Shown: piece by piece, positions 38,095-64,000 of the stretch | How positions within the stretch are numbered: the first letter of the stretch is position 1 | Layout: every line of letters starts with the position of its first letter | Source: Lysobacter stagni | GTDB lineage: Bacteria; Pseudomonadota; Gammaproteobacteria; Xanthomonadales; Xanthomonadaceae | Length of the DNA: 64,000 nucleotides | Reading direction: 5' to 3' | NCBI RefSeq assembly: GCF_030053425.1 | Contig: NZ_JASGBI010000002.1 | Span: 124,001-188,000, forward strand | Made by a program: the position numbers and the translations under genes | The notes under the pieces: generated by a model | Databases searched by the model: none | Told to the model about the DNA's origin: nothing | What the model saw: only the letters and a program-made list of their open reading frames with translations

Positions 38095-38261
38095 TCCGCC
38101 TCTGCGTGGCTGGCGTCGGTGTTGTCGCGTGCCCCACCGATACGAAGCCCGGCGGCCCATGGCAATGCACACGAAGTCCCATGACCTCGCGCAGAACCTT
38201 GTGTGGATAGGGCCTTCCGGACTGCTCCGCGGAGCGCGGAGAGGATCTTGACTGCAACGAT

Positions 38262-38309
38262 TGGTCGGGACGGCCGGATTTGAACCGACGACCCTCTGCC
38301 CCCCAGGCA
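38262..38309 (-). other. 3' half of a tRNA-Pro(GGG) gene, probable attachment-site remnant
   Basis: On the minus strand the sequence holds the anticodon loop TGGGGGG, the variable region, a full T arm (stem GTCGG/CCGGC around TTCAAAT), acceptor 3' strand CGTCCCG, discriminator A and encoded CCA. G72 with A73 and GGG anticodon mark tRNA-Pro. The matching 5' acceptor strand CGGGACG and a D arm are absent in the 50 bases where they should lie, and only 3 anticodon-stem pairs form. Such a tail is what integrase-type elements leave at their distal end. The CCA faces the core chromosome on the left. Confidence 0.72.
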
Positions 38310-38430
38310 TGTGCCCTGACCCGACCATCCCTTTGATCCGGAAGGATTTAGGACTGAGATTCGGCCGCTCAGCGGACCTCATTCCGATCACGTGGAATCA
38401 ACTACTTGCAAACCGATAGGGTGATGCCCA

Positions 38431-38460
38431 AATGCCCGCTTTCGACCCAAAGCGGACGTC
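38431..38460. repeat. Island palindrome, copy 1
   Basis: AATGCCCGCTT-TCGACCC-AAAGCGGACGTC. It is one of about eight imperfect palindromes with core GTCCGCTT/AAGCGGAC scattered between 38.4 and 46.8 kb. Confidence 0.8.
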
Positions 38461-38616
38461 CGTCCGATTCATTCCGGAGCACGCATGTCCTCCAATTCGG
38501 AACCGCGCTCCATCGAAACGGTGTCGGTTGACGCACGCCAGGACGAGGGGCTGATCTTCATCAAGGTGATCGCGTCCATGGGGGTTTCTCAGTTGCGCTG
38601 GTTACGTGCCATCGCT

Positions 38617-39138
38617 CTACTGCGTCATCGACTTCGCCATGCTCCGGATGCCGGCTTTCGCCTTCTCCCCTGCGATCATGGCCGCGGAGGCACTGGACTG
38701 CTTCCAGTTCTCGTAGTCCTCGTCGAACTGCGCACGCTCCTGCGCGGAGAACATCTGGCGCGCCATCTTGAACATGGTGCTCTCTTCCTCCTTCGCATGG
38801 TGGTCGACGAACTCGCCGAAGACCTTCGTGCGCCCAGCAAACTCAGGGCTTCCCGGATCGGCAGCATGGACTTCGGGGATGACGGTGTTCTCCACGGCAT
38901 GGTGCTCCGTATACGCCTCGGCACAGGCTTGCAGGCCTTCCCGGTCCGCGCGTTCCTTGAAGGCCGGGTAGAACACCGTCTCCTCCCACTTCGCGTGGGG
39001 AATCAGCGCATCCTCGATCTTCTCCAGGAGTCCTTCGCGCTTCTTCACGCCCCGGTCCGTTGTTTCCTTGAGCTCGGCGAACAAGCCGCGCAGCTCGTCG
39101 TGCTCTGCCTTCAGCGTCTTCAGGATGTCACGTGTCAT
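38617..39138 (-). CDS. Hemerythrin HHE cation-binding domain protein
   Basis: A 173-residue protein from ATG 39138 (MTRDILKTLKAEHDELRGLFAEL). Di-iron ligands typical of hemerythrin-like proteins are H13, the H-KWEETVFYP segment, the EHHAVENTVIPEV pair and FVDHHAKEEESTMF. The C-terminus is a basic helix. Such proteins are linked to oxygen, nitric oxide or oxidative stress. It is divergent from the catalase gene with 284 bases between, suggesting common control of both. The function is inferred from that context. Confidence 0.9.
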   Translation of the reverse strand: MTRDILKTLKAEHDELRGLFAELKETTDRGVKKREGLLEKIEDALIPHAKWEETVFYPAFKERADREGLQACAEAYTEHHAVENTVIPEVHAADPGSPEFAGRTKVFGEFVDHHAKEEESTMFKMARQMFSAQERAQFDEDYENWKQSSASAAMIAGEKAKAGIRSMAKSMTQ

Positions 39139-39422
39139 GAAAGTGCCTGCCGTTGTAGGTGGGTGCGCCGAACATGGCACCTTTCCTGTCGAGAATGCGT
39201 GGACGCTCGTTTCGTCACGATGCATGGACGCTGCGCGTTCACCGCTTCGGCACTCTCTCGCGCGTAGCTTGGAGCGCCGCGTGGATAGGGCACATAACGC
39301 GCTCTTCGCCAAGTTGAACGAGATCTCGCGAAAGACCACGCGGCGTGCACCCGCAACGCGGCAGTCTGGGGTTGGCCAGGGATGTGATGCCCTGTCCATC
39401 CCACCGCATCTGGAGAACGTCC

Positions 39423-41825
39423 ATGGCCAGCCGAAAGAAGCCCGCCGCAGCCAAGGAAGCGAAGCCACGCAAGGCCAGCACGAGCAAGGCAGGCGGGACG
39501 GCAAAAGGCGGTCGCGGCAAGGAGGGCGGCGATGGCGCCCTCGCGAATCAGGAGCGGGAGGTGCAGGCAACCGCAGCGGCGTTCCCGCATAACGCGAACA
39601 AGGCGACCGAGTACGGCCGCGAAGGCGCGTTGGATCCGCCCGAAGGTGCGCATGTCGACGTTCAGTCGTTGGTTGGCGCCAGTACCTTGAGCGAATCGCA
39701 GGTGTCCGCGAAGGCGGGAGCGCGTGCGGCATCTGGCGCCAGTCCGACGACGGAGCCACTGGATCGCGTTCGGGTGGACGCGGGCGGAGAGCGCCTCACA
39801 ACGAATCAGGGCGTTCCTGTCGCGCAGAATCAGGATTCCCTGAAGGCGGGCCTGCGAGGGCCCGCGCTGCTTAAGGACTTCATCCTCCGGGAGAAGCTCA
39901 CGCACTTCGATCACGAGCGCATTCCCGAGCGCATCGTGCACGCGCGCGGCTCCGGCGCGCACGGCTATTTCGAGTGCTACCGGTCGCTGCGCAAGATCAC
40001 GCGCGCCGCGCCCTTCCAGCAGGACGGCAAGATCACGCCGGTGTTTGTGCGCTTCTCAACGGTGCAGGGCGCGCGCGGCTCGAAGGACACGGCACGCGAC
40101 GTTCGCGGCTTCGCGGTGAAGTTCTACACCGACGAAGGAAACTGGGACCTGGTGGGCAATAACATCCCGGTGTTCTTCATCCAGGACGCCATGAAGTTTC
40201 CCGACCTGGTGCATGCGGTGAAACCGGAACCCCACCACGGGATGCCGCAGGCCGCCTCGGCGCACGACACCTTCTGGGACTTCGTGTCGCTGATGCCGGA
40301 GTCCACCCACATGCTGATGTGGGTGATGTCGGACCGCGGCATCCCGCGCAGCTTCAGGATGATGCAGGGATTCGGCGTGCATACGTTCCGGTTCGTCAAC
40401 GAGGCCGGTGAATCTCGGTTGGTGAAGTTCCACTGGACACCGCGCCTGGGCACGCACTCGCTGGTCTGGGACGAGGCGGTCAAGATCTCTGGCGCCGATC
40501 CCGACTACCACCGCCGGGACCTGTGGGAGGCCATCGAAGCCGGTGAGTTCCCGGAATGGGAACTGGGCGTCCAGGTCTTCACCGATGAACAGGCGAACAA
40601 GTTCAGCTTCGATGTGCTGGACGCGACGAAGATCGTGCCGGAGGAGTTGGTGCCGGTGGAACCGATCGGACGCATGGTGCTCAACCGCAACCCGGACAAT
40701 TTCTTCGCGGAGACCGAACAGGTGGCCTACTGCACGGCCCACGTCGTGCCGGGCATCGATTTCACCAATGACCCGCTACTGGCCGGGCGCATCCACTCCT
40801 ACGTCGACACGCAGCTGTCCCGCCTGGGTGGGCCCAACTTCCATGAGATCCCGATCAACGCCCCGATCGCACCGGTCCACAACAACCAGCGCGACGGGAT
40901 GCATCGGCAAGCGATCCATCGGGGACGCGTCGCGTACGAACCAAACAGTCTTGGCGGAGGATGTCCTTTCCAGGCCGGGGCTGCCGGCTTCGTTGCGTTC
41001 CCGGAGCCCCTGCGAGCTGAGGAGCTGCGCGGACGCCCGGAGAAGTTCGCCGAGCACTTCAATCAGGCGACGCTGTTCTATAGCAGCCAGAGCGACACGG
41101 AGAAGGCCCATATCGCGGCAGCGTTCCGGTTTGAGTTGAGCAAGGTTACCGTGCCGGCGATTCGCGAACGCATGCTCTCGCAGCTCATGAACGTATCGGC
41201 CGACCTGGCAACCGAAGTGGCCAACGGGCTCGGGATCGGTGAGGTGGAGCCCGCGCCACTGGCCATCGAGCGGGTTCCCCGGCCGGAGGTGAAGGAGTCC
41301 GGCGCCCTGTCGTTGCTGTCCCACCCCGGCGACGGCGGCATCCGCACGCGCAAGGTCGCGCTACTGGTTGGCGATGGTGTCAATGGTGCGGCGTTGGCAG
41401 CGGTGCATGCCGCGCTGAAAGGTGCTGGCGCGATGCCGCGGCTCGTGGGGCAGAGGGTGGGCCCGTTCACCACGCGCGAGGGGCGCGCGATGGAGGCAGA
41501 GGCTTCGCTGGAGAACGAGCCAGGTCCCCTGTTCGACGCCGTCGTGCTTCCGGAAGGTGAGGAGGTGGTGCAGGCGCTGATTGGCGACGGTCGCGCCATC
41601 GAGTTCGTGAAGGAGCAGTACCGCCATTGCAAACCGATTCTTGCCATTGGCGCGTCGAGCGCGCTCCTTCAAGCAGCGGGGGCATCGCCCGAGCTGCCGG
41701 ACGGGAGCGAGGACCCGGGCATCGTGCAGGCCGATAGACCTGACGACGACAGCATCGCCGCCTTCGTGGATGCGCTTTCGCACCATCGGCACTGGGAGCG
41801 TGAGACAGATCCGCCCGGCGTTTGA
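39423..41825 (+). CDS. katE: Large-subunit monofunctional catalase with C-terminal flavodoxin-like domain
   Basis: Clade 2 heme catalase like E. coli HPII, converting hydrogen peroxide to water and oxygen. From ATG 39423 it has 800 residues. The first ~50 are Lys/Ala/Gly-rich and basic. Catalytic histidine is in [15 protein letters not shown], the asparagine in [19 protein letters not shown], and the heme tyrosine in [17 protein letters not shown]. The C-terminal 160 residues form the DJ-1/GATase-like domain of large catalases. Upstream in-frame starts are unlikely. Confidence 0.95.
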
Positions 41826-41904
41826 TGGGCCTGATCGCGGGCAGACAGAGCCGTAGACCGCACAACGAAGGGCCGGGGTGCAGGCTCAGGCCTAATGTTC
41901 GCAT

Positions 41905-42465
41905 ATGCCAGCAAAACCGCCAGCGTTGCTCATCGTGGACATGATGAACCTGTTCGAGTTCGAGGACGCTGCCTCGCTGGCATTTGCGGCCGTTCGTTGT
42001 GCGTCCGTGATAGAGCGGCTGCGCACGCGGTTCGATCGCGCCGGTGCGCCTGTTGTCTATATCAATGACAACTTCGCCCACTGGCAGGGCGAGTTTCGTG
42101 ATCTGGTGGCGCAATGCATCAGCACGCAGGGTCCGCCTGCTGAGATCGCGCGCAAGCTGGCGCCTCGCAGTAGCGATTTCCACATTCTCAAGCCGAAGCA
42201 TTCGGCCTTCCTCGCCACACCGCTTACGGTCCTGCTCGCCAAGCTTCGGACGCAACGCCTGGTGATTACCGGAATCGCAGCCGACTCGTGCATCCTCGCG
42301 ACGGCCCAGGACGCCCACATGCGGGAGTTCGGGCTATGGGTACCTGGCGATGCAGTTGCTGCCCAGACATCCGAACGCAAGGCGCGGGCGCTGGCACTCA
42401 TGGCGCAAACATTGGGCGCAGACGTGCGAGGGGAACGTTCGGTGCGGGGATTGTTTCCGCGCTGA
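41905..42465 (+). CDS. Isochorismatase-family cysteine hydrolase
   Basis: A 186-residue protein with the family triad: D12 in LLIVDMMN, K98 in LKPKHSAF and C129 in IAADSCIL. The substrate may be an amide or an isochorismate-like compound; it is not fixed by sequence. It starts at ATG 41905 with GCATATGCC before it, only a weak ribosome site. Follows catalase after 80 bases in the same direction. Confidence 0.9.
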   Translation: MPAKPPALLIVDMMNLFEFEDAASLAFAAVRCASVIERLRTRFDRAGAPVVYINDNFAHWQGEFRDLVAQCISTQGPPAEIARKLAPRSSDFHILKPKHSAFLATPLTVLLAKLRTQRLVITGIAADSCILATAQDAHMREFGLWVPGDAVAAQTSERKARALALMAQTLGADVRGERSVRGLFPR

Positions 42466-42680
42466 CCGGAGCGCCTTCGACACTGGGGACCTAGGCTGCA
42501 CCTGGTAGATGTAGGTGAATATCGTGACTGGGCGCAACCTAAGTCGGGAGTGCTCGTGCCTGGTTCGAGCCGAAGTTCATCTGGCTCGTCGTTGGCGCGC
42601 TGCTAATGCAGCCTGTTCGATTGCCTCACCACGTGCGTCCTGGCAAGCCTCGCGAAGCTAGGCACAGCTCACGCCGCGCG

Positions 42681-42710
42681 AACCTCCGCTTCTGACCGAT
42701 AGCGGTCATT
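42681..42710. repeat. Island palindrome, copy 2
   Basis: AACCTCCGCTTCTGACCG-ATAGCGGTCATT, degenerate in the left arm. Confidence 0.6.
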
Positions 42711-42739
42711 GAGGTAGGGCGGTCGGCTCGGCCAGTGCC

Positions 42740-42765
42740 AATGTCCGCTTCCCAAAGCGGACATC
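42740..42765. repeat. Island palindrome, copy 3
   Basis: AATGTCCGCTT-CCC-AAAGCGGACATC, the most symmetric copy, with a 10-base arm. Confidence 0.85.
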
Positions 42766-42854
42766 GCCACCATTGGGGAAAGTGCATCCACGATCGCGAA
42801 CCTTGCAGGTCGAGGATCCGGAAGGGAGGCATCACGGATATCAATCGGGAGCCA

Positions 42855-43028
42855 TCAATTGCTGTGGCGGTGCTGGACATTGATCTCGGAGGCGAGAGGG
42901 GTGCCGACGTCGCCACCCTGCTCACTGAACGAGGGATTCCGAATCTGGTTGCAAGTGCATACGTCGACGACGAGATTCCGGCTGCGATGCGCGGTGGACC
43001 CCACTTAAGGACCTTGAGCTTGCTTTAG
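42855..43028 (+). pseudogene. Remnant of a response-regulator receiver domain
   Basis: The frame reads SIAVAVLDIDLGGERGADVATLLTERGIPNLVASAYVDDEIPAAMRGGPHL, which matches the second half of a stand-alone receiver domain. The phosphorylated aspartate lies in VLDIDL. The N-terminal strands and the C-terminal LxKPF lysine are absent, so it is a fragment of about 58 residues. No own start is clear. Confidence 0.7.
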
Positions 43029-43059
43029 CAGCCTGTCTCGACCAAACAACCAGCGCTAC

Positions 43060-43323
43060 CTAACCCGCCGGGGCTTGGTCGCCGTTCTCGCGTTGGTGGA
43101 GAATCTTGGCAGCCTGCGCATCGGCGGCAGCCCGATGTTGGAGGGATTTGCACATCTCGATGCCGGCCGACGTCAGACCCAGTCCTTCCTCGTCCTCAAC
43201 CACCAATCCGCTCTCGATGAGCCGGTCTCGAACGACGGAGTCATCATCGGTCAGCGCAGTGTGCTGAGAGATCCTTTTTAACACCTCCAGTAAAGCGAGG
43301 TCTTCAAGCGAAATTGGATCCAT
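43060..43323 (-). CDS. Hypothetical 87-residue protein
   Basis: Frame from ATG 43323 (MDPISLEDLALLEVLKRISQHT). It is mostly helical and acidic (DDDSVVRDRLIESGLVVEDEEGLGLTSAGIEMCKSLQ), with the look of a winged-helix (LTSAGIE) segment. No ribosome site is visible. Function unknown. Confidence 0.55.
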   Translation of the reverse strand: MDPISLEDLALLEVLKRISQHTALTDDDSVVRDRLIESGLVVEDEEGLGLTSAGIEMCKSLQHRAAADAQAAKILHQRENGDQAPAG

Positions 43324-43450
43324 GGCCGTCGGCGCGGGCGCGGCGTACTGCCGCCAGAATCGAGACTATACCAACTGATCGGTCCGGCAGAATCCGCCTC
43401 CAGCCGCGGAGGATCAGCTTCTCAAGCCGCAAGGGCTTTACCCCGCTGCC

Positions 43451-43480
43451 AAATGTACGGTTCTGCCCGCTAGAGGACTT
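43451..43480. repeat. Island palindrome, copy 4 (degenerate)
   Basis: AATGTACGGTTCTGCCCGCT-AGAGGACTT, recognisable by the spacing and arms with several substitutions. Confidence 0.45.
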
Positions 43481-43497
43481 CTGGAATGCCTGAGCGC

Positions 43498-43527
43498 TGG
43501 GAACGGTTTCGGCCCAAGGCGGACATA
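43498..43527. repeat. Island palindrome, copy 5 (degenerate)
   Basis: GGGAACGGTTTCGGCCC-AAGGCGGACATACC. Confidence 0.55.
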
Positions 43528-43593
43528 CCTGAAGGGTAATTTCTACGAATTTTTGACGACCCTTAAGAATCGCCAACGGACCTGCATCCCCCG

Positions 43594-43621
43594 CTTGAAA
43601 AGACGCGTCGGCGCGCTATTT
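43594..43621 (+). promoter_or_regulatory. Sigma-32-like heat-shock promoter of the Hsp20 gene
   Basis: CTTGAAA (43594-43600) is a perfect match to the sigma-32 -35 box. After 13 bases CGCTATTT (43614-43621) matches CCCCATNT at five positions. The start codon lies 58 bases downstream. Confidence 0.65.
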
Positions 43622-43627
43622 TTCAGC

Positions 43628-43651
43628 CCGGATGGGACCTGCCACATCCGG
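43628..43651 (+). promoter_or_regulatory. Hairpin in the Hsp20 leader
   Basis: CCGGATG (43628-43634) pairs perfectly with CATCCGG (43645-43651), 10-base loop. It sits in the 5' leader between the promoter and the GGAGAG ribosome site (43668-43673). Confidence 0.6.
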
Positions 43652-43678
43652 AGATCAACGCTTTTTTGGAGAGATGCG

Positions 43679-44149
43679 ATGAATCAGATGGCTCGCTTTC
43701 CGCAGTGGGGCGGACAGGGAACCACAGACCCAGTCCGTCAAATCATCGATCGCCTTTTTGAAGGCAACTTTTTGCAGGGCGGCTCCAGGGACGAATCGTC
43801 AGTCGTGACAAGCCAATGGATTCCGTTAGTAGACATCAAGGAAGAGCAGGACCGCTTCATCCTCTATGCCGATATTCCCGGCGTAGACCCTAAGAACATC
43901 GATGTGCAGATGGATAGGGGATTGCTAACCATTAAGGGAGAGCGTACCTCCGAGATCGAAGAAAGCGAACGCTTCTCCCGCATCGAGCGCCAACACGGAA
44001 GCTTCCACCGCCGTTTTGCCCTCCCTGATAGCGCCGACCCTGAAGGGATTACGGCGACCGGTCACAACGGCGTGTTGCGGATCATGATCCCGAAGCGTCC
44101 CGAGACCACCCCTCGCCGTATCCAGGTGGGATCAACCTTCAACAACTGA
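43679..44149 (+). CDS. Hsp20/alpha-crystallin small heat-shock protein
   Basis: ATP-independent holdase of 156 residues from ATG 43679. The alpha-crystallin domain spans about 45-140 (WIPLVDIKEEQDRFILYADIPGVDPKNIDVQMDRGLLTIKGERTS, then FHRRFALPDSADPEGITATGHNGVLRIMIPK). The C-terminal tail has the conserved I-x-V (RRIQVGS). Lower GC than its neighbours and a sigma-32-like promoter upstream suggest heat induction. A strong terminator follows. Confidence 0.95.
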   Translation: MNQMARFPQWGGQGTTDPVRQIIDRLFEGNFLQGGSRDESSVVTSQWIPLVDIKEEQDRFILYADIPGVDPKNIDVQMDRGLLTIKGERTSEIEESERFSRIERQHGSFHRRFALPDSADPEGITATGHNGVLRIMIPKRPETTPRRIQVGSTFNN

Positions 44150-44155
44150 TCTAGT

Positions 44156-44183
44156 AGCGCCCCGCAGAGGCGGGGCGCTTTTT
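44156..44183 (+). terminator. Terminator of the Hsp20 gene
   Basis: AGCGCCCCGC (44156-44165) pairs perfectly with GCGGGGCGCT (44170-44179) around AGAG, followed by TTTT. Confidence 0.93.
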
Positions 44184-44205
44184 ACCTCAATGTTGGTGGG
44201 AGCCT

Positions 44206-44475
44206 ATGGACCGACTGACGGAGGAAGCGCTTTGCGATTTGCAGGCTCAGGTTCTTGTCCTTCGCATGGCACTACGGGCTTTGATTCGTACGCATCCCGA
44301 TCCGGACGCCTGCTTGGCTGCATGGCGCAGGACAGTTCCGGATATTGCGTCCGGTCCTGCGGTGTTGCCCGTGTACGCTCGTGGCAGCGAATACGTCACC
44401 GAGAGGTGCTTTGCGTTTGCTGAGGACTGGACAGCCGAGTTGGTCGAACACGCGGTTGCATGCAAGGGCAATTAG
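44206..44475 (+). CDS. Hypothetical 89-residue protein
   Basis: Frame from ATG 44206 with GGGAGCCT just before. It is helical (MDRLTEEALCDLQAQVLVLRMALRALIRTHPDPDACLAAWRRT) with cysteines at 10, 35, 68 and 85. The type resembles small unknown proteins common on xanthomonad islands. No domain recognised. Confidence 0.65.
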   Translation: MDRLTEEALCDLQAQVLVLRMALRALIRTHPDPDACLAAWRRTVPDIASGPAVLPVYARGSEYVTERCFAFAEDWTAELVEHAVACKGN

Positions 44476-44515
44476 TGCATCTCCACGCGCCAGGAGAGAC
44501 CGGATGACGGCGGGG

Positions 44516-44543
44516 ATGACCGCTTCTGGCCGAAAGCGGTCGC
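44516..44543. repeat. Island palindrome, copy 6
   Basis: ATGACCGCTT-CTGGCCGA-AAGCGGTCGC, with compensating changes in both arms (GACCGCTT/AAGCGGTC), which supports selection for pairing. Confidence 0.8.
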
Positions 44544-44597
44544 CACGTTCGCGCGACGCGGGACTATAGTTCCCGCAGCCCATCAGGGACCGGCGCA

Positions 44598-45554
44598 ATG
44601 TGCTACTCCGCCCAGATCTGGGCCGACTACAAGAAGTTCACCCGCCAGTTCGGTGCCATCCTGAGCGTCGGGGAGTTCACGCGGATCTACTGGGAGCGCC
44701 GGGAGGGCGGCAGCCCCAAGATTCCCAAGGCGATCGAGCTGGCGTTCACGGAGCCGCGGGACGAGTTGGAGGCCCAGGTGAAGCAGATGATCGACGAGGC
44801 CCGCGAGGCTGAGCTTGGGCGGATCGGGGCGCGCATCGCCATTCAGCAGGAAAAGATCGCCGAGGCTGAGGCAGCCCTCCAGAAGCGGGTCACCAAGAAG
44901 TCCCGGGAGATCATCCGAGTCGCGAACAACCGGATCGATGCCGAGCAGGCCAAGGCCGACAAACTCCAGCGCACCGAGCCCGCGGAAGACGACGATCGGA
45001 TCTGGCCCGGCGACTACACGCTGGTCATGGTCAAGGAAGGCGACCGGAAGGTCGTTAAGCCCATGCGCTACCAATGCCGCCTGCCCGGCTGGACACTCGC
45101 GGACGAGAAGGCCAAGCCCGGCACGTACAACGCCCGCCGAGACAGCCTGCGCAGCGTGTGGAAGCGCCTCTACGGCTACAACCACGGAATCATGGCCGCG
45201 ACGCATTTCTACGAGCGCGTGGCCCGCCACGACTACGAACAGCGCGCGCTGGCCGATGGGGAGCGTCCGAAGAGCATGGAGCTGGAGTTCACCCCGCAGA
45301 CGGGCGAGCCCCTCTACATCCCCGTGCTCTGGTACGCCTGGACTGATGGCGTCGAGGAGCTACTGTCCTGCGCCGCGATCACGGACAACCCAGAGCCAGA
45401 GGTAGCCATGACTGGGCATGACCGGACAATCATCAACATCAAGCCTGAGCACGTGGATGCGTGGCTGAATCCGGACCCGAAGAACCTCGCCGCCATGGAC
45501 GCGATTCTTGAGGACAAGCGGCACCCGTTCTACGAGCACCGCATCGCAGCTTAA
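44598..45554 (+). CDS. SRAP (YedK/HMCES) family peptidase with coiled-coil insertion
   Basis: Protein of the SRAP family, which shields abasic sites in single-stranded DNA by a covalent thiazolidine link at C2. Length is 318 residues against about 220 for E. coli YedK. Catalytic residues are C2 (MCYS), N178 in GTYNARRDSL, E206 in HFYE and H274 in GHDRTIIN. The excess lies at about 50-130, a charged helical coiled-coil (IGARIAIQQEKIAEAEAALQKRV) between strand 1 and the rest. The gene starts with ATG 44598, where C2 must be exposed. A degenerate second copy is at 49.4 kb. Confidence 0.93.
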   Translation: MCYSAQIWADYKKFTRQFGAILSVGEFTRIYWERREGGSPKIPKAIELAFTEPRDELEAQVKQMIDEAREAELGRIGARIAIQQEKIAEAEAALQKRVTKKSREIIRVANNRIDAEQAKADKLQRTEPAEDDDRIWPGDYTLVMVKEGDRKVVKPMRYQCRLPGWTLADEKAKPGTYNARRDSLRSVWKRLYGYNHGIMAATHFYERVARHDYEQRALADGERPKSMELEFTPQTGEPLYIPVLWYAWTDGVEELLSCAAITDNPEPEVAMTGHDRTIINIKPEHVDAWLNPDPKNLAAMDAILEDKRHPFYEHRIAA

Positions 45555-45630
45555 TGACGTTTTTTGCGGTTCCTCGACGTCGACTTAACGATCGTCGCGG
45601 CAAATTTTTGGCCCTAGCGAGGGGCTGGCC

Positions 45631-45831
45631 ATGGCGACAACAAGCGAAGACCTAGAGGCCTTTGAGGCGATGATTCCTGTGATCGTGGAGGTAGTTCCAC
45701 AGGAGGATGTTCTCACCGCGTTTAGCTGTTACATCGAGCCGGTGGTGGAGAGAGCAGCGAACCGCCTGATAGCGGAGGCGCAAGTCGAGAACATCCTCCA
45801 TCGCCATGGCATCGCCACTCCGGGCCTTTGA
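45631..45831 (+). CDS. Hypothetical 66-residue protein
   Basis: From ATG 45631 after GAGGGGCTGGCC. It is an acidic helical protein (EDLEAFEAMIPVIVEVVPQEDVLTAFSCYIEPVVERAANRL). No domain recognised. Its end overlaps none of the supported next start. Confidence 0.55.
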   Translation: MATTSEDLEAFEAMIPVIVEVVPQEDVLTAFSCYIEPVVERAANRLIAEAQVENILHRHGIATPGL

Positions 45832-45856
45832 CCCGATTGCGCGGACAGACATAGCC

Positions 45857-46084
45857 ATGACCGAACGCGACTGGACCGGTCCGACACGACCACCTTATTC
45901 GGCGCTGATTCGCACTATTGGCGAACAGACTCGGGAGCTCTACCCGGAGGCCGATTGGAACGACGTCTCCCGTAAGTTAGAGCGCTTGTGGGGAAGCTAC
46001 GTAACAGGGCTGGCGTGGGGTGAGGTGTCCGAAAAGATTCGGGCGGCTTGGGAGGACGCCGGTCCTTTCACCGAGCGAGATTGA
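45857..46084 (+). CDS. Hypothetical 75-residue protein
   Basis: Frame from ATG 45857 (MTERDWTGPTRPPYSALIRT). A further in-frame ATG at 45806 would add 17 residues overlapping the previous gene. Sequence is rich in W, R and E (ADWNDVSRKLERLWGSYVTGLAWGEVSEKIRAAWEDAG). Function unknown. Confidence 0.6.
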   Translation: MTERDWTGPTRPPYSALIRTIGEQTRELYPEADWNDVSRKLERLWGSYVTGLAWGEVSEKIRAAWEDAGPFTERD

Positions 46085-46094
46085 ACCACTCGGG

Positions 46095-46331
46095 CTAATG
46101 CTGCCTATGCTCTTCGGGCACGTAGCCGAGACCGATCAGAATGTCCGTGATCCGAATGCTTGCATCCTCGATGCAGTCATCGTTCGCGACTTCCCGAACC
46201 TCGTCGGCTAGGTCTGCAAACCTAGGAAAGAAGTCACCTTCGTCCGGAAAGCGCTCCTTCAGGTCGTCCGCGAGCAGCCGCAGCTGCTTGAGGAGTGGTT
46301 CCAGTTCGGTCCAAGCGAGCTTCGGCGTCAT
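46095..46331 (-). CDS. Hypothetical 78-residue protein
   Basis: From ATG 46331 (MTPKLAWTELEPLLKQLRLLADDLKERFPDEG). A helical acidic protein. Its start overlaps the stop of the gene to its right in ATGA, so the two are coupled. Function unknown. Confidence 0.6.
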   Translation of the reverse strand: MTPKLAWTELEPLLKQLRLLADDLKERFPDEGDFFPRFADLADEVREVANDDCIEDASIRITDILIGLGYVPEEHRQH

Positions 46332-46672
46332 CGGGCGATCCTCGTGGCGCGGCGCCCATGACGCCGGTGGATGTACGTGGTCGCAGGACGCTCGCCGCCA
46401 GGCAGGCTCAGATGCGCGAACGATCCAGAGCTGGCGCCGACGGCCTCGCGAATCTCGCGCTCCCACTTCCGTGCCCACTGCGCCAAGTACCGCTCGGCGC
46501 CAGTCTCGGTGCATGTGAAGACATAGCGCGGTAGCCCGGCGGGGCTCATGCACACCCGCCAGGGCGAGTCGGGATCGTGGTTCGCCGGGCACGCAGACGC
46601 AACGACGCGATCACCCAAGTACAAGCCCGGGCCGCCCACGTATCGCTCGAAGTGGAAGCCGTCAGGAAGCAT
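46328..46672 (-). CDS. Hypothetical 114-residue protein
   Basis: From ATG 46672 (MLPDGFHFERYVGGPGLYLGDRVVASACPAN). A possible small mixed alpha/beta protein with HHRRHGRRATRIAR basic tail. Its N-terminal MLP-x-F and YxGDR pattern recurs in the minus-strand frame at 49.85-50.1 kb, so a second, degenerate member of this family is on the island. Function unknown. Confidence 0.6.
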   Translation of the reverse strand: MLPDGFHFERYVGGPGLYLGDRVVASACPANHDPDSPWRVCMSPAGLPRYVFTCTETGAERYLAQWARKWEREIREAVGASSGSFAHLSLPGGERPATTYIHRRHGRRATRIAR

Positions 46673-46705
46673 GGCGCCATCCTACGAGCGCCTGTCTCAC
46701 GGCCT

Positions 46706-46760
46706 GCGACCGTTAAGCGGACGACGGCCCAATGTCCGCCATCGGCCAGAAGCGGACGCT
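46706..46760. repeat. Island palindrome, copies 7 and 8
   Basis: 46731-46760 reads AATGTCCGCC-ATCGGCCAG-AAGCGGACGCT. Immediately upstream GACCGTT-AAGCGGACG (46708-46723) is a shortened neighbour. Confidence 0.75.
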
Positions 46761-46907
46761 CGCAGGCGCCGGATAGTTGCTGCGCGTCCGAGCACGGGAC
46801 TGCCCATCCACTAGGCATGCTCCTTGCCGTGCTACATGCGACGCCCCCTTCGCTGCGAGGAACGCAAGAGTTCGCGGCCGACTGGCAGGCGTTACGGGAG
46901 AAATACT

Positions 46908-47270
46908 GTGGCCACTACAAAGGCAGCGTCTGGTCGGGGCGCAGGCCCCGCTGCTTCACGACCGAACATCCTGGTGATCTGGGGCGACGACATCGGCATG
47001 TGGGATGTCGGAGCCTACACGCACGGCATGATGGGTCACACCCCCAACATCGACAGCATCGCTCGCGACGGCATGCTATTCACCGATCACTATGGGCAGC
47101 CGAGCTGCACTGCGGGTCGCGCGGCGTTCCTGATGGGGCAGTTGCCGATCCGAACGGGAATGACGACCGTCGGCATCCCCGGCTCCAAACGCGGTATCCA
47201 GGCGTCCGCCCCCCCATTCGACAACGGGCGTGGCGATCGATGCGTTTACCGGACCCAAGGGGCCGTCTAG
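46908..47270 (+). pseudogene. N-terminal remnant of an arylsulfatase
   Basis: The frame opens at GTG 46908 after GGGAG. It reads [24 protein letters not shown], the metal-binding DD of sulfatases, and [20 protein letters not shown], the formylglycine signature C-x-A-x-R. After about residue 103 the sequence stops matching any sulfatase and ends at 47270, whereas the family is 450-550 residues. Only the first fifth remains. GTG is a guess from the ribosome site. Confidence 0.82.
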
Positions 47271-47334
47271 TCAGTAGTTGGTCGCGCATGGCGTGCTCGG
47301 CGTTTGGCCAACAAGCCTCAGGTGCTTTGCAGCT

Positions 47335-47934
47335 CTAGCGCACGGTGGGATTGGACCTCGTCAAGCTCACTGGCATCTGACTCAATCGGCGATATAGCCG
47401 CACTTGCCCTTGGATAGGCCACCATTGGTAGAGGAATATCTCCAGTGGTCTCCATAGAGCCACCCACCCCCCGATGACGAAACTCTCCCTGACCAAGGTC
47501 GCATAGCTGTCTTTCAGGGCCCCTGCAACTAGCTCTCCTATGAATATGGCGGCGGTCAAGAACGCTAAACCGATCATCAAGCTAATTCGACCAGTTCGAA
47601 AGAGCGCTTTTAATTGCAGGCGAGAATGATCGGCGCGTCGAGAGAAGTATTCCTTGACCGCAGTTCTGAAGGCAGTCTCATCTCCACCTACTGCAACTTG
47701 GCTCCCTACCTGCACGTGCAGGGCCAATTCCTGCCTGGGCGGCAACTGGCTAGCCCACTCAACGATGTAGTTCACGGCAGCTGAGTCTAGATCACGTTCA
47801 TTGAACGGAGCCGGATCCATCGAATTGAATAGTTGTCTGATGTCGGTGATGTGCAATGCCAGCGTCTGACTCTCTGGTCGTGACGGAGGTTTCGTAGAGC
47901 TCACCTCCCCGGATCCGGACAACCATTTCTTCAT
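47335..47934 (-). CDS. Hypothetical membrane protein, 199 residues
   Basis: Frame from ATG 47934 (MKKWLSGSGEVSS), chosen for the GAGGAAC ribosome site; ATG 47967 would add 11 residues. A soluble N-terminal part (residues 20-130, LHITDIRQLFNSMDPAPFNERDLDSAAVNYIVEWASQL) precedes two helices, near 132-155 and 164-185. Unknown function. Lower GC than the core. Confidence 0.7.
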   Translation of the reverse strand: MKKWLSGSGEVSSTKPPSRPESQTLALHITDIRQLFNSMDPAPFNERDLDSAAVNYIVEWASQLPPRQELALHVQVGSQVAVGGDETAFRTAVKEYFSRRADHSRLQLKALFRTGRISLMIGLAFLTAAIFIGELVAGALKDSYATLVRESFVIGGWVALWRPLEIFLYQWWPIQGQVRLYRRLSQMPVSLTRSNPTVR

Positions 47935-48031
47935 CGTGTTCCTCGCTCTGGCCAAGAGTGAAACCACACGCCCGGTACTAACGTGGCAAGCTGGGTCATC
48001 GCTCAGCCGACACGACTCGGGCTGTTAGGCG

Positions 48032-48937
48032 CTACAACCATCGCTCATCGGAGGTAACGCTCAGTGTAAGCCACAGGTGCGAGCCATCCTCGCCAATATC
48101 TGCGGCGATCTGGCTGCGCAATGCATCGAGTCGATCCACGGCGCCGCCTTCGTGGCCGCTCGGCGCCAGTAGATGGATCTCCACAAAGCGAGCCCGCCCC
48201 GACTTGGTCACGTAGCTGGTGACGTCGACGAAACCATGCGAGGCAATTGCATTTGCGATTGCTGCAGACACGCGCGTCTCCAGGGCCCGCGGAGCGATCT
48301 GACCGACCTCAGCCGCCGCATGCCATATCGAGCGGATCGGAATGGGCAGCAAGGCCAGGGATACAATGAGAAGGACAGTTCCGTCGGCGTATTTGACCGA
48401 TGAGGAAAACTTGCCGTCGGCCATGGCCAAGGCTGCCAGGAAGCCGAGCAGCAGTCCAAGGCTCAAGCCTCCGCTGACCACCCAGCCCCTCGCGTCAAGC
48501 GCCACCAGTCCCGACCCCGTACGCTTTGCGGCCCGGTGCATCACGACGGCCATGGCGAAGGCCAGCACCGCCGTTAGCGCCGCCCAGATCGCACCTACTC
48601 CATATTCGACGTCCGTGGCGCCGCCGCTGCGCAAATCTGCGACTGCGGTCAGCGCTGCGTACACGCAGGACAAACTCAGCGCTACGCCCCCAAACAGTTC
48701 AATCAAGGGCTCAAGGTGCCAGAACCCAAACTGGAAGCGGCGCGTTCCATTTGTAGAGATCAAGCGGGCGACCATAAGCGACCCAATGGTGATTACAACG
48801 TCGACCAGGTTGTACATGCCATCGAAAAGAATGGCTCGCGAACGCGTAACCAAGCCGATAGTCATCCCAATAACACCCAGCACCACCGTGACGCCGATGG
48901 AACCGATCAAGTGTCGCTGTTCGGAGCGGTGATGCAT
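48032..48937 (-). CDS. Cation diffusion facilitator transporter
   Basis: A 301-residue CDF-family efflux protein from ATG 48937 (MHHRSEQRHLIGSIGVTVVLGVIG). Six helices are visible. Typical motifs are the SRAILFDGMYNLVDVVITIGSL region with the D-x-x-x-D metal pair, and LDARGWVVSGGLS. A cytoplasmic domain ends it (VDVTSYVTKSGRARFVEIHLL). The usual H-x-x-x-D is replaced by D-x-x-x-D, so substrate metal is open. The gene reads alone on the minus strand. Confidence 0.88.
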   Translation of the reverse strand: MHHRSEQRHLIGSIGVTVVLGVIGMTIGLVTRSRAILFDGMYNLVDVVITIGSLMVARLISTNGTRRFQFGFWHLEPLIELFGGVALSLSCVYAALTAVADLRSGGATDVEYGVGAIWAALTAVLAFAMAVVMHRAAKRTGSGLVALDARGWVVSGGLSLGLLLGFLAALAMADGKFSSSVKYADGTVLLIVSLALLPIPIRSIWHAAAEVGQIAPRALETRVSAAIANAIASHGFVDVTSYVTKSGRARFVEIHLLAPSGHEGGAVDRLDALRSQIAADIGEDGSHLWLTLSVTSDERWL

Positions 48938-49418
48938 GGGCAAGCTTCTCGACAAGTCTGCAGAGCACATGTACCCGGTCGGAGGGCATCGTTGAACTCA
49001 ACTGGGCGGCTAGATTGCGCCCCGCCAGCAACGTGGCACGCCTTCAGGAGGCAACGGGATGGGGCCATTGCCTGGTGAGACAGACGCCGAATGCTAAACC
49101 CAGGTGGACCGGGGAACTGTTAAGGCCCGCCTGAGCTAGCTACAGTCGGCCATCTGACGACACGTGACGTGCATTGGAAGACCGGGCAGAGCTGTCGGAT
49201 CGATGCTGGGACCATTGGCGTAGGGCGGAGGACACCTATGTTGGTTCCCATCGCCCCCCGTTCACGAGCGCTTGACTACTACGCAAGTCAAATTCCCTGT
49301 CTCCAGCGGGCTACCACCATGAATAGCGTGCATGGAAGTTGCGGCCAACATCGGTCGCGTCCGCGCGCGAGATGCTGTCTGACCTCAGGCGCAGCGCCCC
49401 TGCCCCGCGGCTCGCGCA
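48938..49418. other. Gap without a supported gene
   Basis: About 480 bases. Frames here are short and lack ribosome sites. I see no RNA gene or terminator. Confidence 0.4.
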
Positions 49419-49622
49419 GCAATCACCGACGCCCCAGAACCAGAGGTTGTCAAGGCCGGCCACGACCGCACGATCATCAACATCAAACCAGAACACGTTG
49501 AAGCCTGGCTCAATTCGGACCCGTCGAACGTGGCCGCGATGTATGCGAGCTTCGACGACAAGCGACCCCCTATTACGATGATCGCCCGACGTGAGGACTA
49601 TAAATGTCAAAGCCAAAGATGA
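49419..49622 (+). pseudogene. C-terminal remnant of a second SRAP peptidase
   Basis: The frame starts without its own start codon: AITDAPEPEVVKAGHDRTII followed by NIKPEHVEAWLNSDPSNVAA. It aligns without gaps to residues 260-317 of the intact SRAP protein (AITDNPEPEVAMTGHDRTII), including the active-site histidine. The match ends near 49592 and the frame stops at 49622, overlapping the next gene. The rest of the gene is missing. Confidence 0.85.
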
Positions 49623-49867
49623 TCAGCGTGGTGCTGCAAGACGGCGCCGAGACTGAGCTCAAGGGCATTCTCGGCCCTTGGCTCCGCAGCAACGAGTTCG
49701 CTTCTGCTTACGTGAACTGCTTGGCGATCGAGCCCAATGGCCCCTACTTCTTAATGAAGCTCCAAGTGCCAGACACAATGCTCGAGATGGAAGTACAAAT
49801 TCCCCACCCCTACGTCAAGGGCACGCTCTGCGCAGCCGACTTGAGAAAGCTAGGCTTCGGTGAGTAG
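49604..49867 (+). CDS. Hypothetical 87-residue protein
   Basis: Frame from ATG 49604 (MSKPKMISVVLQDGAETELKG) after GTGAGGACTATAA. An alpha/beta protein (FLMKLQVPDTMLEMEVQIPHPYVKGTLCAADLRKLGFGE). It begins within the SRAP remnant and has no known domain. Confidence 0.65.
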   Translation: MSKPKMISVVLQDGAETELKGILGPWLRSNEFASAYVNCLAIEPNGPYFLMKLQVPDTMLEMEVQIPHPYVKGTLCAADLRKLGFGE

Positions 49868-50098
49868 CCAAAGCTGCCGGTGTTCAGGCGGCACGCACCC
49901 GAGTTCAACCAGGATCGACGTGGCGCTTGCCCTGGGCAACGCTTCCGGCCACGCCGCGCTATTCCCGACCGGTCCAGTAGATGGCGACGCGGCATCGGGG
50001 CACCCCGTCCTTGCGGTCACAGACGCCGCGCAGATGTAGCGATCGCCCGGATAGCTGGCGCCGTCGGAGTCGACCCAGAAGAAGTTGGACGGGAGCAT
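49850..50098 (-). CDS. Hypothetical 82-residue protein or remnant
   Basis: Frame from ATG 50098 (MLPSNFFWVDSDGASYPGDRYICAASVTA). The MLP-x-F start and Y-x-GDR motif match the intact 114-residue gene at 46.3 kb. After about residue 30 the sequence is low-complexity and no longer aligns. It overlaps the end of the plus-strand gene by 18 bases. Probably a decayed copy. Confidence 0.4.
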   Translation of the reverse strand: MLPSNFFWVDSDGASYPGDRYICAASVTARTGCPDAASPSTGPVGNSAAWPEALPRASATSILVELGCVPPEHRQLWLLTEA

Positions 50099-50236
50099 GC
50101 ATTCATCTTAGTCCCGGCCATCTCAAGAGCCGAGGCCTTGATTCTGAACGGGCCACGATAACTGCAACTCCTTGTAGAGACGGAGATCAACTCGCGGTGG
50201 TCTGCTGTAGAGGACTTCCTGCATGGCGTCCACCTC

Positions 50237-51328
50237 ATGCCCGTAGTGTTTCCGTTGAAGGGCCAGCGCGTCCTCACCTGCCTCGCCCTCGCGATTCTAT
50301 TCACGCCGGCCGCCAAGGCGACCGTTACCTGCACAAGTGGACCTACGGCGGTCATCACGAAGGCGTGGGCACAAGAAGGCATTGACTGGACGGCCCCCAA
50401 GAACACCCCGGTCAACACGGCCACCGTCGAGTACACGTACACCCTCCAGAAGACGGGAAACACGTCGGAGGAAGTAGCGTTCGAGGCACACTGGGTCAAC
50501 GGTACAGCGGGCAGTTGGTACGCAGAAGCGAATGCACGGGGCTTCTTCGGTGGGGCCCAGGGCTACGGTCTGTCGATGATGCTAGGCAACGGGAATTACG
50601 TTACCAACTCGGGGCCGGCGTACTCGACAATGACTTTGCCCACCGCGGGCACGTACACGTTAAAGACCACGGTGTACTACTCATTGAAGAAGGTATCGGA
50701 CACAACGACCGACGGCCTGCTCCTCTCGTTCGCCTCCCCGCTATCCTGGTCGGCGCAAGTGAAGAGCAATGGCACCTGGACCAAACCCGCCAGCTGCCTG
50801 TCTGGTGGTGGGATCGACCTCCACACCCTTGCCCTTGGTATTGGCCTGCATCCTCCGGCGCCCAAGCCGTCCGCCGTCTGCACGGTCAACAGGGGCCAGC
50901 CGATCAACATCAAACTGCCGCCTGTCGAAGTTACCGAGTTGAATGGGCTCGGTACGCTGCCCCCCAATTATCAAAAGAACGAGTACCCGCTGCATTACGT
51001 GTGCACCGGCACGGGCGGCGTCGTTGATCCGAACTATCGGATCGGCCTCATAGGTACCAAGGCGGGCACCACCAAGGCGCTGCAGAGCACGAACCCGAAC
51101 GTCGGCGTGATGGTCGAAGCGGTAGACAGTCGAGGGGGCGCGCCCCAGGCCCTCGTGCCAGGGACGGCCACCACCGCATCGCAGATTCGCCTGTATGACG
51201 CCGGCAAGAGCGGCGGCACCACGATGAAGCTCCTGAGTTATCCAGTGCGAAGCGGCGGAAAATCGGCAAGCGACGTGAAGCCTGGCGAGTTCAGTGCGAG
51301 CGGAACGTTGCGAGTGTTCACAGACTAG
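50237..51328 (+). CDS. Secreted fimbrial-type protein
   Basis: A 363-residue protein from ATG 50237 with a signal peptide (to about residue 28, AILFTPAAKA). It is rich in Thr, Ser and Gly beta-strands. The C-terminal 140 residues have the pattern of a chaperone-usher pilin (GQPINIKLPPVEVTELNG, YVCTGTGG, YRIGLIGT, and a final GEFSASGTLRVFTD). Four cysteines could form disulfides. The N-terminal half is unlike the pilins, so it could be a tip adhesin. No usher or chaperone gene is near. It sits directly beside the phage tail end on the opposite strand. Confidence 0.6.
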   Translation: MPVVFPLKGQRVLTCLALAILFTPAAKATVTCTSGPTAVITKAWAQEGIDWTAPKNTPVNTATVEYTYTLQKTGNTSEEVAFEAHWVNGTAGSWYAEANARGFFGGAQGYGLSMMLGNGNYVTNSGPAYSTMTLPTAGTYTLKTTVYYSLKKVSDTTTDGLLLSFASPLSWSAQVKSNGTWTKPASCLSGGGIDLHTLALGIGLHPPAPKPSAVCTVNRGQPINIKLPPVEVTELNGLGTLPPNYQKNEYPLHYVCTGTGGVVDPNYRIGLIGTKAGTTKALQSTNPNVGVMVEAVDSRGGAPQALVPGTATTASQIRLYDAGKSGGTTMKLLSYPVRSGGKSASDVKPGEFSASGTLRVFTD

Positions 51329-51335
51329 CGCGGGC

Positions 51336-51725
51336 TCAATTACCGGTGGGCTCCGCAGGCCAGAGGATCACTGCGGGAAAGCCCGATGTCGCTGGCAAAT
51401 CTCGGAGCTGCTGTCGGTAACCCAGCCAGGCGGCACGCTGCGCTTCGCTCTGCGGATAATCCGGCATGGCCCGGTAGTCGCTCGCGGCCAGTAGCCGGTC
51501 ACGCCGACGCCGCGCCAGCACCGTGACCTCCTCGACACCCGGTGCGGGTTCGTCTCCGAGTTTCGGGAAACCATCGTCGCCAGCGACGATGCGACGTCCC
51601 GCCGCCTGCCCTTCGAACAAGCTTGCGTGCCGCTCGGGCGTAATCTCAACGACGTCCTCTGGCATCTCGTCATGAAGGCCATTGAGGTAGAAGCCGCCGG
51701 TTGTCGCGCTGAAGAAGGTGTCCAT
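51336..51725 (-). CDS. Tail fibre assembly-type protein
   Basis: A 129-residue protein from ATG 51725, overlapping the tail-fibre stop (TGATG). The N-terminal MDTFFSATTGGFYLNGLHDEMPEDVVEITPERHASLFEGQAAGRRIVAGDDGFP and the C-terminal YRAMPDYPQSEAQRAAWLGYRQQLRDLP match the DUF4376/Tfa-like type found at the end of phage tail clusters. Likely a chaperone for fibre folding. Confidence 0.8.
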   Translation of the reverse strand: MDTFFSATTGGFYLNGLHDEMPEDVVEITPERHASLFEGQAAGRRIVAGDDGFPKLGDEPAPGVEEVTVLARRRRDRLLAASDYRAMPDYPQSEAQRAAWLGYRQQLRDLPATSGFPAVILWPAEPTGN

Positions 51726-52522
51726 CAAAAGCCTGTCGCCTCCCAGAAGAAGCCTTCGAAATAGTCCGCAACGCTGGCTGGGCTTTGCACATAGGTGCTG
51801 AAGCCAGTAAGGGAAGGATCACCCGTCACCTGGATGAAGCAGTCGATGTCCTCCCAATTGCCGTTTCCGCCGCCGCTTCGATTCCAATCGAACACGGCCA
51901 CCGACAGGCAAGCATTGGGAAATGCCACCGGAAAGGTGATGGTCGGTCCCGTTCCTTCGCGTCGCACGCCGAGGTAGCGGCCCCACTGTGTGATCTTTCC
52001 GCTAGGATCACGATGCCACCCGTTCTGTGTGAACGAATGCGTGAAGCCGCCGAGCATCCCGGACTCTCCGAGGATCGCCGCAATCGCGGCGCGCACGAAC
52101 GCGGTAGTGGCGACCAAAGTGCTGTTGTCGTTGGTGGCTTGGGTGGGCGCTCGCGGCGATCCGGTGAAGTCCGGACTCTCCCGCGGCGCAGCGCCCAACT
52201 GATCCAGCGTCACACCGTGCGGGTTCTCCCGGTCACGGATGTGCGCGAGCAAGGCGTCAGCCGACGCAAAGTGCTCCGCATGCTCAGAAACGGAGTGACT
52301 GATGTGCCACAAGATAGCGTCCAGAAGCAGGCCGTGATTCCCGCTTTCACCGCGCATCATCGCCGCCTCGATGACGCGCATCTGCGCTTCCTGAAAGTCG
52401 TTCATCCACGCCGCGCCGACCTCCGTGGCGGGCCTCCCCGTAAACACGTCGCCATCTTGAAAGCCATCCTTGCCGGGCCCGTGCAGGTCGCGGGCTCGGG
52501 CAGGCGTGCTAATTCTGTCCAT
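51725..52522 (-). CDS. Phage tail fibre protein
   Basis: A 265-residue tail protein from ATG 52522. A helical N-terminal part (DFQEAQMRVIEAAMMRGESGNHGLLLDAILWHISHS) leads to a 20-residue DNPHGVTLDQLGAAP-like fibre repeat and a distal domain GGFTHSFTQNGWHRDPSGKITQWG-x-... typical of gpH/gp53-like fibres. This distal part probably binds the host surface. Confidence 0.85.
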   Translation of the reverse strand: MDRISTPARARDLHGPGKDGFQDGDVFTGRPATEVGAAWMNDFQEAQMRVIEAAMMRGESGNHGLLLDAILWHISHSVSEHAEHFASADALLAHIRDRENPHGVTLDQLGAAPRESPDFTGSPRAPTQATNDNSTLVATTAFVRAAIAAILGESGMLGGFTHSFTQNGWHRDPSGKITQWGRYLGVRREGTGPTITFPVAFPNACLSVAVFDWNRSGGGNGNWEDIDCFIQVTGDPSLTGFSTYVQSPASVADYFEGFFWEATGF

Positions 52523-52919
52523 CTTGGCAATCCACCATGGGTTGTTTCGTCGCGACCGCACAAACGTAAGCGCCGCGACCGAAGAGGCGCACCGCGCCGT
52601 ATATGAGCCGACGGCGCCAGGTGGGCACGCGCAGCACCCCCATCGCCTCGAGGAAGATGCGATCCGCACCAGACTTCGTGCCGATCGCGTTCGCGTACAG
52701 GTAGTCGTGCACGATCGCGGCTTTCGCATAGCGACCATGGGGCGGAAATACCACCCACAGGAGCCGAGGCACGCTGGCCAAGTCGGTGACCGTGCCGGCG
52801 GGCACTCGGATCAACTCCTCGCTTGGGAAGCTGCCCACGTGGTACTCGAAGTCCGCGAGAAGCTCCCACCGGTATCGATCCAACAGGCGCAGATCCGCAG
52901 GCGTCGTGAATGAACTCAA
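52509..52919 (-). CDS. DUF1353 phage protein
   Basis: A 136-residue protein. It starts at TTG 52919, which overlaps the upstream stop in TTGA and has a strong GGAGGT ribosome site 6 bases before it. The DUF1353 pattern is clear: VPAGTVTDLASVPRLLWVVFPPHGRYAKAAIVHDYLYA. Such proteins are common in tail and baseplate regions with unknown function. Confidence 0.85.
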   Translation of the reverse strand: MSSFTTPADLRLLDRYRWELLADFEYHVGSFPSEELIRVPAGTVTDLASVPRLLWVVFPPHGRYAKAAIVHDYLYANAIGTKSGADRIFLEAMGVLRVPTWRRRLIYGAVRLFGRGAYVCAVATKQPMVDCQDGQN

Positions 52920-53437
52920 AGCGGCACCTCCGGGTACAGCGGGCGCCACGCGTGCAGCGCCGCGGCGGCATCGCACTGCGCAATCCAGTCGCTGCACTCC
53001 CGGCGCCATGCGATCGCCCTGCCGCTGGCGACCTTGAAATCGTTGGCCAGGCTGACCACCGCTTCGCAGAACTGCTGCTTCCCCGCTTCGTCGAACGGAC
53101 CGCCGATCTCATCGAGTAGGAGCGTCGGCACCGATCGGGATGGATCTGCCAGCCACGCTTGCGCTTCGGATAGTTGCGTCGGCCAGGTCATGGCCTCGGT
53201 TCCAGGGTAACGCGCGAGGATCGGCGCGAGTACCTGATCCACCATCGCGTGCAGGCGCTCCGTAGCCTCGATGCGCGCCATCTCAATCGCCTGCGTGCCT
53301 TCGTTGGGCGGGTTCTCCTCTGCCCATGCCTGGAAGCCGGGCCACCGTTCATCACCCGCGATGGTCACACCACTGCGGCCGGCGACGTCGAACCAAACCG
53401 CAGCGTCGTCGGTGCCTGAAATTCGTTCGTATCGCAT
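52916..53437 (-). CDS. Phage tail-region protein, unknown
   Basis: A 173-residue protein from ATG 53437 (MRYERISGTDDAAVWFDVAGRSGVTIAGDERW). Rich in Trp and Ala. Its stop overlaps the start of the DUF1353 gene. It lies between the glycine-rich fibre and DUF1353, so a fibre or baseplate accessory role is likely. Confidence 0.7.
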   Translation of the reverse strand: MRYERISGTDDAAVWFDVAGRSGVTIAGDERWPGFQAWAEENPPNEGTQAIEMARIEATERLHAMVDQVLAPILARYPGTEAMTWPTQLSEAQAWLADPSRSVPTLLLDEIGGPFDEAGKQQFCEAVVSLANDFKVASGRAIAWRRECSDWIAQCDAAAALHAWRPLYPEVPL

Positions 53438-53444
53438 CTCAACC

Positions 53445-62240: not shown

Positions 62241-62257
62241 GTGGTCCTTCCTTCGGC

Positions 62258-63996: not shown

Positions 63997-64000
63997 GTGC

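Follow-up and report, generated by a model that had tools for sequence, protein, structure and literature searches.

A tRNA-Pro(GGG) half-gene as the distal attachment-site core of a 50.66-kb prophage in Lysobacter stagni

The genome of Lysobacter stagni (3.93 Mb, 3 contigs) carries the 3′ half of a tRNA gene within the 64,000-nucleotide stretch analyzed here (C2:124001-188000, referred to as the window). This raises the question whether the half-gene marks the end of a mobile element and, if so, which element this is. The original prediction, made from the letters of the window, regarded it as the left end of an island, and this proved correct, as an intact copy lies 50,658 bp to the right with a prophage between the two. 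The half-gene is almost certainly the core of the distal attachment site (attL) of this 50.66-kb prophage. This way, the ends are fixed for a 50.7-kb prophage which is seen only partly in the window (Table 1).

Table 1. Features of the attachment site and the element, given in window positions unless preceded by C2.
Feature	Position	Strand	Remark
Native tRNA-Pro downstream flank, now outside the element	38215..38261	-	flank match in G005, G011
attL core: 3′ part of tRNA-Pro(GGG), 48 bp	38262..38309	-	identical to the gene at C2:212920-212996
Part of the element inside the window	38262..64000	.	continues to C2:212919, 24,919 bp past the right window edge
Inner attL arm	38310..38425	.	with core 81% over 160 bases to the fragment end of a second element in G002
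IHF-like site	38396..38408	+	zero mismatches to WATCAANNNNTTR; 87 bases from core end
Arm-type-like site TAGGGTG	38417..38423	+	108 bases from core end; complement of the repeats beside the intact tRNA
260-aa ORF	38485..39267	+	DNA relatives in other genus members
Large catalase (Catalase, Catalase-rel, Catalase_C), cargo	39345..41825	+	
Isochorismatase-family protein, cargo	41905..42465	+	
Hsp20 family, cargo	43553..44149	+	
SRAP family protein, cargo	44598..45554	+	
Cation efflux family, cargo	48032..48970	-	
Fimbrial-domain protein	50237..51328	+	beside tail fibre genes
Tail fibre assembly and tail fibre genes	51336..52738	-	start of phage structural part
Baseplate, hub, tape measure, tail tube genes	55382..62240	-	
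Tyrosine integrase, 366 aa	C2:209814-210914		~2 kb from intact tRNA; PF00589 + PF09003

ARAGORN called a tRNA-Phe as the sole tRNA of the window and none at 38262-38309, therefore this stretch is a partial gene. An intact tRNA-Pro(ggg) was called beyond the window at L004:5520-5596(-), which corresponds to C2:212920-212996 and is the complete copy that had been predicted to lie to the right. Both share 48 of 48 bases, and the first base beyond differs on both sides. The shared stretch spans the CCA, the acceptor 3′ strand, the T arm, the variable region, the 3′ anticodon-stem strand and the anticodon loop, with the identity running from the CCA to 3 bases inside the 5′ anticodon stem, while the D arm and the 5′ acceptor are absent. 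The 48-bp match bears out the anatomy that had been read from the fragment before (T arm, acceptor 3′ strand, CCA and anticodon, without D arm or 5′ acceptor), and a perfect match of this length far exceeds what chance would give. A genome search for a second match had also been proposed, and a complete second copy exists rather than a lone partial one: a 121-base query against the 3.93-Mb genome gave 2 matches at E ≤0.001, the fragment itself and the intact gene. With a longer query, 2 further places at 75% over ~80 bases were obtained, which are presumably other tRNA genes. Rfam yielded nothing at gathering scores in window positions 36000-52000.

The fragment and the intact gene lie on the same strand (minus) and form direct repeats, the unit being 50,658 bp long. 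The CCA had been said to face the core of the island, but the orientation is reversed: its TGG at 38262-38264 (minus) faces left toward the chromosome. The truncated anticodon side of the fragment faces the island, and the CCA side faces the native tRNA downstream flank. Despite this reversed argument, the island does extend rightward as predicted.

The element reaches from C2:162262 to C2:212919 (50,658 bp). Using PHROGs, terminase, portal, maturation protease, major head, endolysin, replication, CII-like and repressor-like proteins were identified, as well as baseplate, hub, tape measure, tail tube and tail fibre proteins. Genes for all parts of a temperate phage (terminase, portal, capsid, tail, lysis and lysogeny control) are thus present. 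Pfam and PHROGs scans, which covered part of the ORFs, showed no relaxase or mating-pair family in the element. The G+C content is 0.618 in a cargo block at the fragment end (38310-51335), 0.653 in the phage part and 0.672 left of the fragment. Matches to TerL at E 1e-100 were obtained in 18 others of 247 family genomes, with identities of only 41-45%, therefore no near copy of the phage is seen in these 247 genomes.

An integrase had been expected within a few hundred bases of the intact tRNA. A tyrosine integrase was indeed found at this end, but it is located ~2 kb away, because two genes (L004:3504-5383) intervene. They encode a DUF262 protein, which matches GmrSD_N and the PADLOC model NsnA (9e-56), and a HEPN-like protein (PF18735, 26.9 bits, below the cut-off of 28.4), and are likely a defence pair. 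The integrase contains a Phage_integrase domain (PF00589) and a lambda arm-binding domain (PF09003), and its residues 2-357 align to lambda Int (5j0n_E, E 5e-30). In this alignment R204, K227, H311, R314, H337 and Y346 are located at what we take to be the catalytic columns of lambda Int. With the catalytic set and the arm-binding N-terminal domain present, the enzyme is predicted to be a lambda-type integrase.

The uninterrupted site can be read from relatives, in which the gene order is dxs-TraB family-tRNA-Pro-merR-ihfA-pheT. The 47-base outer flank together with the core is 91% (G005) and 90% (G011) identical over 103 bases to an intact tRNA-Pro and its 3′ flank. According to this match, 38215-38261 is the downstream flank of the tRNA itself, severed from its gene by the insertion. 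All 11 other genus members have merR, ihfA and pheT together with tRNA-Pro. In 10 of them, the TraB-family gene known from the left flank is located on the contig of tRNA-Pro, usually with dxs and a cupin gene; nine of these ten have both flanks within one fetched stretch, in G003 they are ~19 kb apart, and in G009 they lie on different contigs. An uninterrupted tRNA-Pro site was found in G006, G019 and G021, where the TraB-family gene is the nearest searched gene to tRNA-Pro on the left-flank side, at a distance of ~880, ~140 and ~225 bases, respectively. In other members this interval is longer and variable, which marks a recurrent insertion site, and in G046 the TraB-family gene is the immediate outer neighbour of the fragment that belongs to that genome's own element. 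The same fragment beside the same genes in all relatives without an island would have spoken against the original prediction; instead, the flanking genes border an intact tRNA there, with no such island.

Two further observations concern these flanks. A Na/Pi cotransporter gene (window 36214-38094) between the cupin gene and the fragment gave no match in 18 fetched stretches of relatives and may be an older local addition. In G011, another, diverged 3′ fragment of tRNA-Pro (L080:9657-9805, corresponding to G011:C1:1311656-1311804) is located at a great distance from the tRNA gene; 95 bp of the native outer flank accompany it, at 85% identity over 137 bp.

The same integrase type was found at the same tRNA in other genomes. 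All seven named integrase loci (L084-L090; Lysobacter prati and Stenotrophomonas) adjoin tRNA-Pro(GGG); they share this tRNA and the merR-ihfA-pheT neighbours with the L. stagni element, and their integrases are 65-82% identical to its own. Integrase matches at E 1e-60 occur in 11 of 247 family genomes, including the own one and an interrupted copy in G004, and the other nine are all located beside tRNA-Pro, eight within the fetched flank and the one of G071 at 3.6 kb. The 16 integrase loci represent 15 distinct genomes, G185 and G268 (the genome of L089) being the same by coordinates, and the matches of G185 (residues 67-360), G123 (residues 157-363) and L089 (residues 72-361) are partial. 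A truncated tRNA copy comprising 45-56 bases of the 3′ end is present in 13 of 15 integrase genomes, with L084 left out and both G185 and G268 counted (12 of 14 with the doubled genome taken once), and none was found in G197 and G267. Eight genomes have it on the contig of the intact gene at a distance of 35.6-44.2 kb, a usual length for a prophage. The distance is 2.5-4.7 kb in G123 and G185/G268, the copy is on another contig in G057 and G264, and G123 has two truncated copies.

The bodies of these elements differ. For the comparison, the 57 proteins or ORFs of the locus were used as queries, 53 of which come from the element, and six of the long elements were each compared with this set; besides the integrase, 0 to 3 of the 53 matched in each (E 1e-4). 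In the whole elements of G265 and G266, an endolysin was the only other match besides the integrase among the 53. In the matches listed by a literature search, titles and abstract beginnings named no tRNA-Pro(GGG) site in Xanthomonadaceae, and no paper combining Lysobacter, tRNA-Pro and prophage was found.

Three smaller loci were observed in addition. On contig C10 of G004 (L071:3520-6272), another contig than that of the intact tRNA, a partial, frame-interrupted integrase relative is next to a diverged tRNA-Pro fragment that has a similar arm. In the 4.4-kb element of S. maltophilia IAM 12423, one ORF (L089:9791-10885) joins a SRAP-like start (18.1 bits, below the cut-off of 27.1) to an integrase without the arm-binding part, perhaps through a deletion joining cargo and integrase. 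On G002:C21 (L067:2908-8725), 5.7 kb separate an intact tRNA-Pro from a fragment; this stretch has the left inner arm and the tRNA-side arm with three repeats as in the L. stagni element, contains no PF00589 match and is probably a shrunken relative.

The ends of the elements were analyzed for integrase and IHF sites, using WATCAANNNNTTR, which we take to be the IHF consensus, for scoring. With this consensus, an IHF-like site is located at the fragment end of 9 of 9 elements, 86-88 bases from the core and before TAGGGTG on the same strand, with 0 mismatches in five, 1 in three and 2 in one (G266, a score which 31% of shuffles reach). The TAGGGTG site lies 107-109 bases from the core in six of the nine, and the other three are one base off by eye; it occurs anywhere in 7 of 924 control stretches of 300 bp. 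On the other side, CACCCTAT or a close variant is present three times with 11-bp spacing 3′ of the intact tRNA in 14 of 17 integrase loci, L112 and L089 belonging to the same genome. Two such repeats were found in L090 and L113 and none by pattern in L110; in the L. stagni element they begin 37, 48, and 59 bases past the CCA. The tRNA-side IHF-like site has 1 mismatch in the L. stagni element. Among the 17 integrase loci it has 0-1 mismatch in 7 and at least 2 in the other 10; none of the 9 controls reaches 0-1.

The repeats are absent from nine chosen control loci (0/9), from which five genus loci without this integrase (L066, L067, L074, L076, and L078) had been omitted, their arm-like flanks having been seen beforehand. 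L067 (G002) has three repeats (37, 48, 59) and L076 one, and L066, L074, and L078 have none, which gives at least one repeat in 2 of 14 loci without this integrase (9 controls and 5 omitted). The arm, IHF and hairpin motifs and the scanned stretches were picked after sequence inspection, and shuffles were mononucleotide only, therefore the counts describe rather than test. The stronger point is the near-fixed spacing of the sites across genera. With an IHF-like site, arm sites and 11-bp repeats, the element ends in several genera resemble what we take to be the attachment-site layout of lambda, as far as this can be predicted from sequence. An inverted 10-base copy of the core end in the left arm (38320-38329) was considered as an acceptor-stem mimic and rejected, as it is not kept in G002.

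Of the 17 integrase loci, 12 have a strong hairpin with a T-rich end between the CCA and the repeats (11 of 16 if the duplicate is left out), and no more than 2 of 100 shuffles reach it. No hairpin was found there in L084, L105, and L110, and that of L106 is poor. Strong hairpins also occur in 4 of 9 control loci, as native terminators would have them. In G071, the intact tRNA and the fragment are directly followed by an identical run of 60 bases. Such elements may carry a terminator for the tRNA along with the 3′ half. The idea is not based on the L. stagni element, which is a poor example, its hairpin being weak (7 pairs, reached by 9 of 100 shuffles).

The cargo block at the fragment end has a length of ~13 kb, and the genes for catalase, Hsp20, SRAP and efflux, which lie to the right of 38.3 kb, are likely cargo of the element. 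A 49%-identical SRAP protein is encoded at the same end of the G071 element. The block is a patchwork whose pieces match scattered places across the genus, therefore parts of it may be later additions. The 260-aa ORF gave neither a Pfam nor a PADLOC match (both E 0.01). One of its DNA relatives lies near a second catalase in the L. stagni genome (G000:C1:1535586-1542660), where the relatives of the ORF and of the catalase are ~1.4 kb apart and close to another PF00589 gene, perhaps as a second element with the same cargo pair. The fimbrial-domain gene has matches of 76% and 69% at G000:C1:2878320 and 2894288. An ~80-bp repeat (window 42682-42764) occurs in many places of the own and related genomes; an integron attC site was considered and dropped, as the palindromic part is scattered through the genome, with 10 distinct exact places in G000. 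A stretch of ~225 bp (window 46961-47183) has, among the matches listed, many of 69-87% scattered over genomes of the genus.

The differences between cargo block and phage part allow another reading, in which a cargo island (38.3-51.3 kb) ending in the fragment and a prophage (51.3-88.9 kb, window numbering) stand in tandem and the middle tRNA copy has been lost. In favour of it, G+C and the kinds of genes set the cargo apart from the phage part, two truncated copies occur in G123, and the outer side of the G002 fragment also bears a phage-like arm. Against these stand the lack of a third core copy of at least 14 exact bases on either strand of C2:124001-222400, the left inner arm, which shares the spacing of the attachment-site family with the right arm, and the SRAP gene at the same end of the G071 prophage, so that we consider a tandem pair improbable. 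That the fragment is a chance product of tRNA duplication or decay, unconnected to any element, has next to no probability. Such stray fragments do exist, as that of G011 at 1.31 Mb has no PF00589 match in the 19 kb fetched around it. Here, however, the direct repeat bounds a prophage with an integrase, the arms are shared and the same pattern recurs in other genera; the uninterrupted sites in relatives and the second copy with its integrase in effect refute this explanation.

The attL reading is based on several direct observations: there are two copies in a fitting order and orientation, relatives have the site uninterrupted, phage and integrase genes are present, and arm sequences are shared at both ends. 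From these we infer the recombination itself, the roles of IHF and the arm sites, and a possible present ability to excise. The lambda-type tyrosine integrase would have recombined 48 bp of the phage attachment site with the same 48 bp in the 3′ part of the host gene for tRNA-Pro(GGG). On the right, this would have joined the host 5′ half to the phage 3′ half and kept the tRNA complete; on the left, the 3′ part displaced from the host gene would have stayed behind as the half-gene, still attached to its former downstream flank.

Beyond this locus, it is possible, though somewhat doubtful, that a tRNA-Pro(GGG) integration module consisting of integrase, IHF-like and arm sites and often a hairpin is swapped as a unit among otherwise unlike prophages of Xanthomonadaceae. 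It would replace the downstream flank of the tRNA by a phage trailer and terminator and keep tRNA-Pro expressed, beside the IHF alpha gene, whose product the reaction would require. A recurrent site with readable anatomy would make it possible to recognize from sequence where prophages at tRNA-Pro(GGG) end in Xanthomonadaceae. It also raises the question whether tRNA-targeting phages swap the terminator as well as the tRNA 3′ half; the shared integration module and this question are the parts of wider interest.

The L. stagni element is a further case of a well-known event, the insertion of a prophage at a tRNA 3′ end. Like lambda-family prophages at such sites, it has an Int aligning over nearly its full length, a direct repeat of the tRNA 3′ end, arm- and IHF-like sites, and head, tail, lysis and control genes. 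It differs from them in its target, the tRNA-Pro(GGG) behind pheT-ihfA-merR, in the 13-kb distal cargo and in the DUF262/HEPN-like pair between integrase and tRNA. Among phage records, the hub protein is closest to those of SfV-like tailed phages (Enterobacteria phage SfV, Bordetella, Pseudomonas), with 36.6-39.6% identity in the best 12 of 92 records and less than 60% in all 92 matching ones; the integrase reaches at most 32.7% identity among the best 12 of 152.
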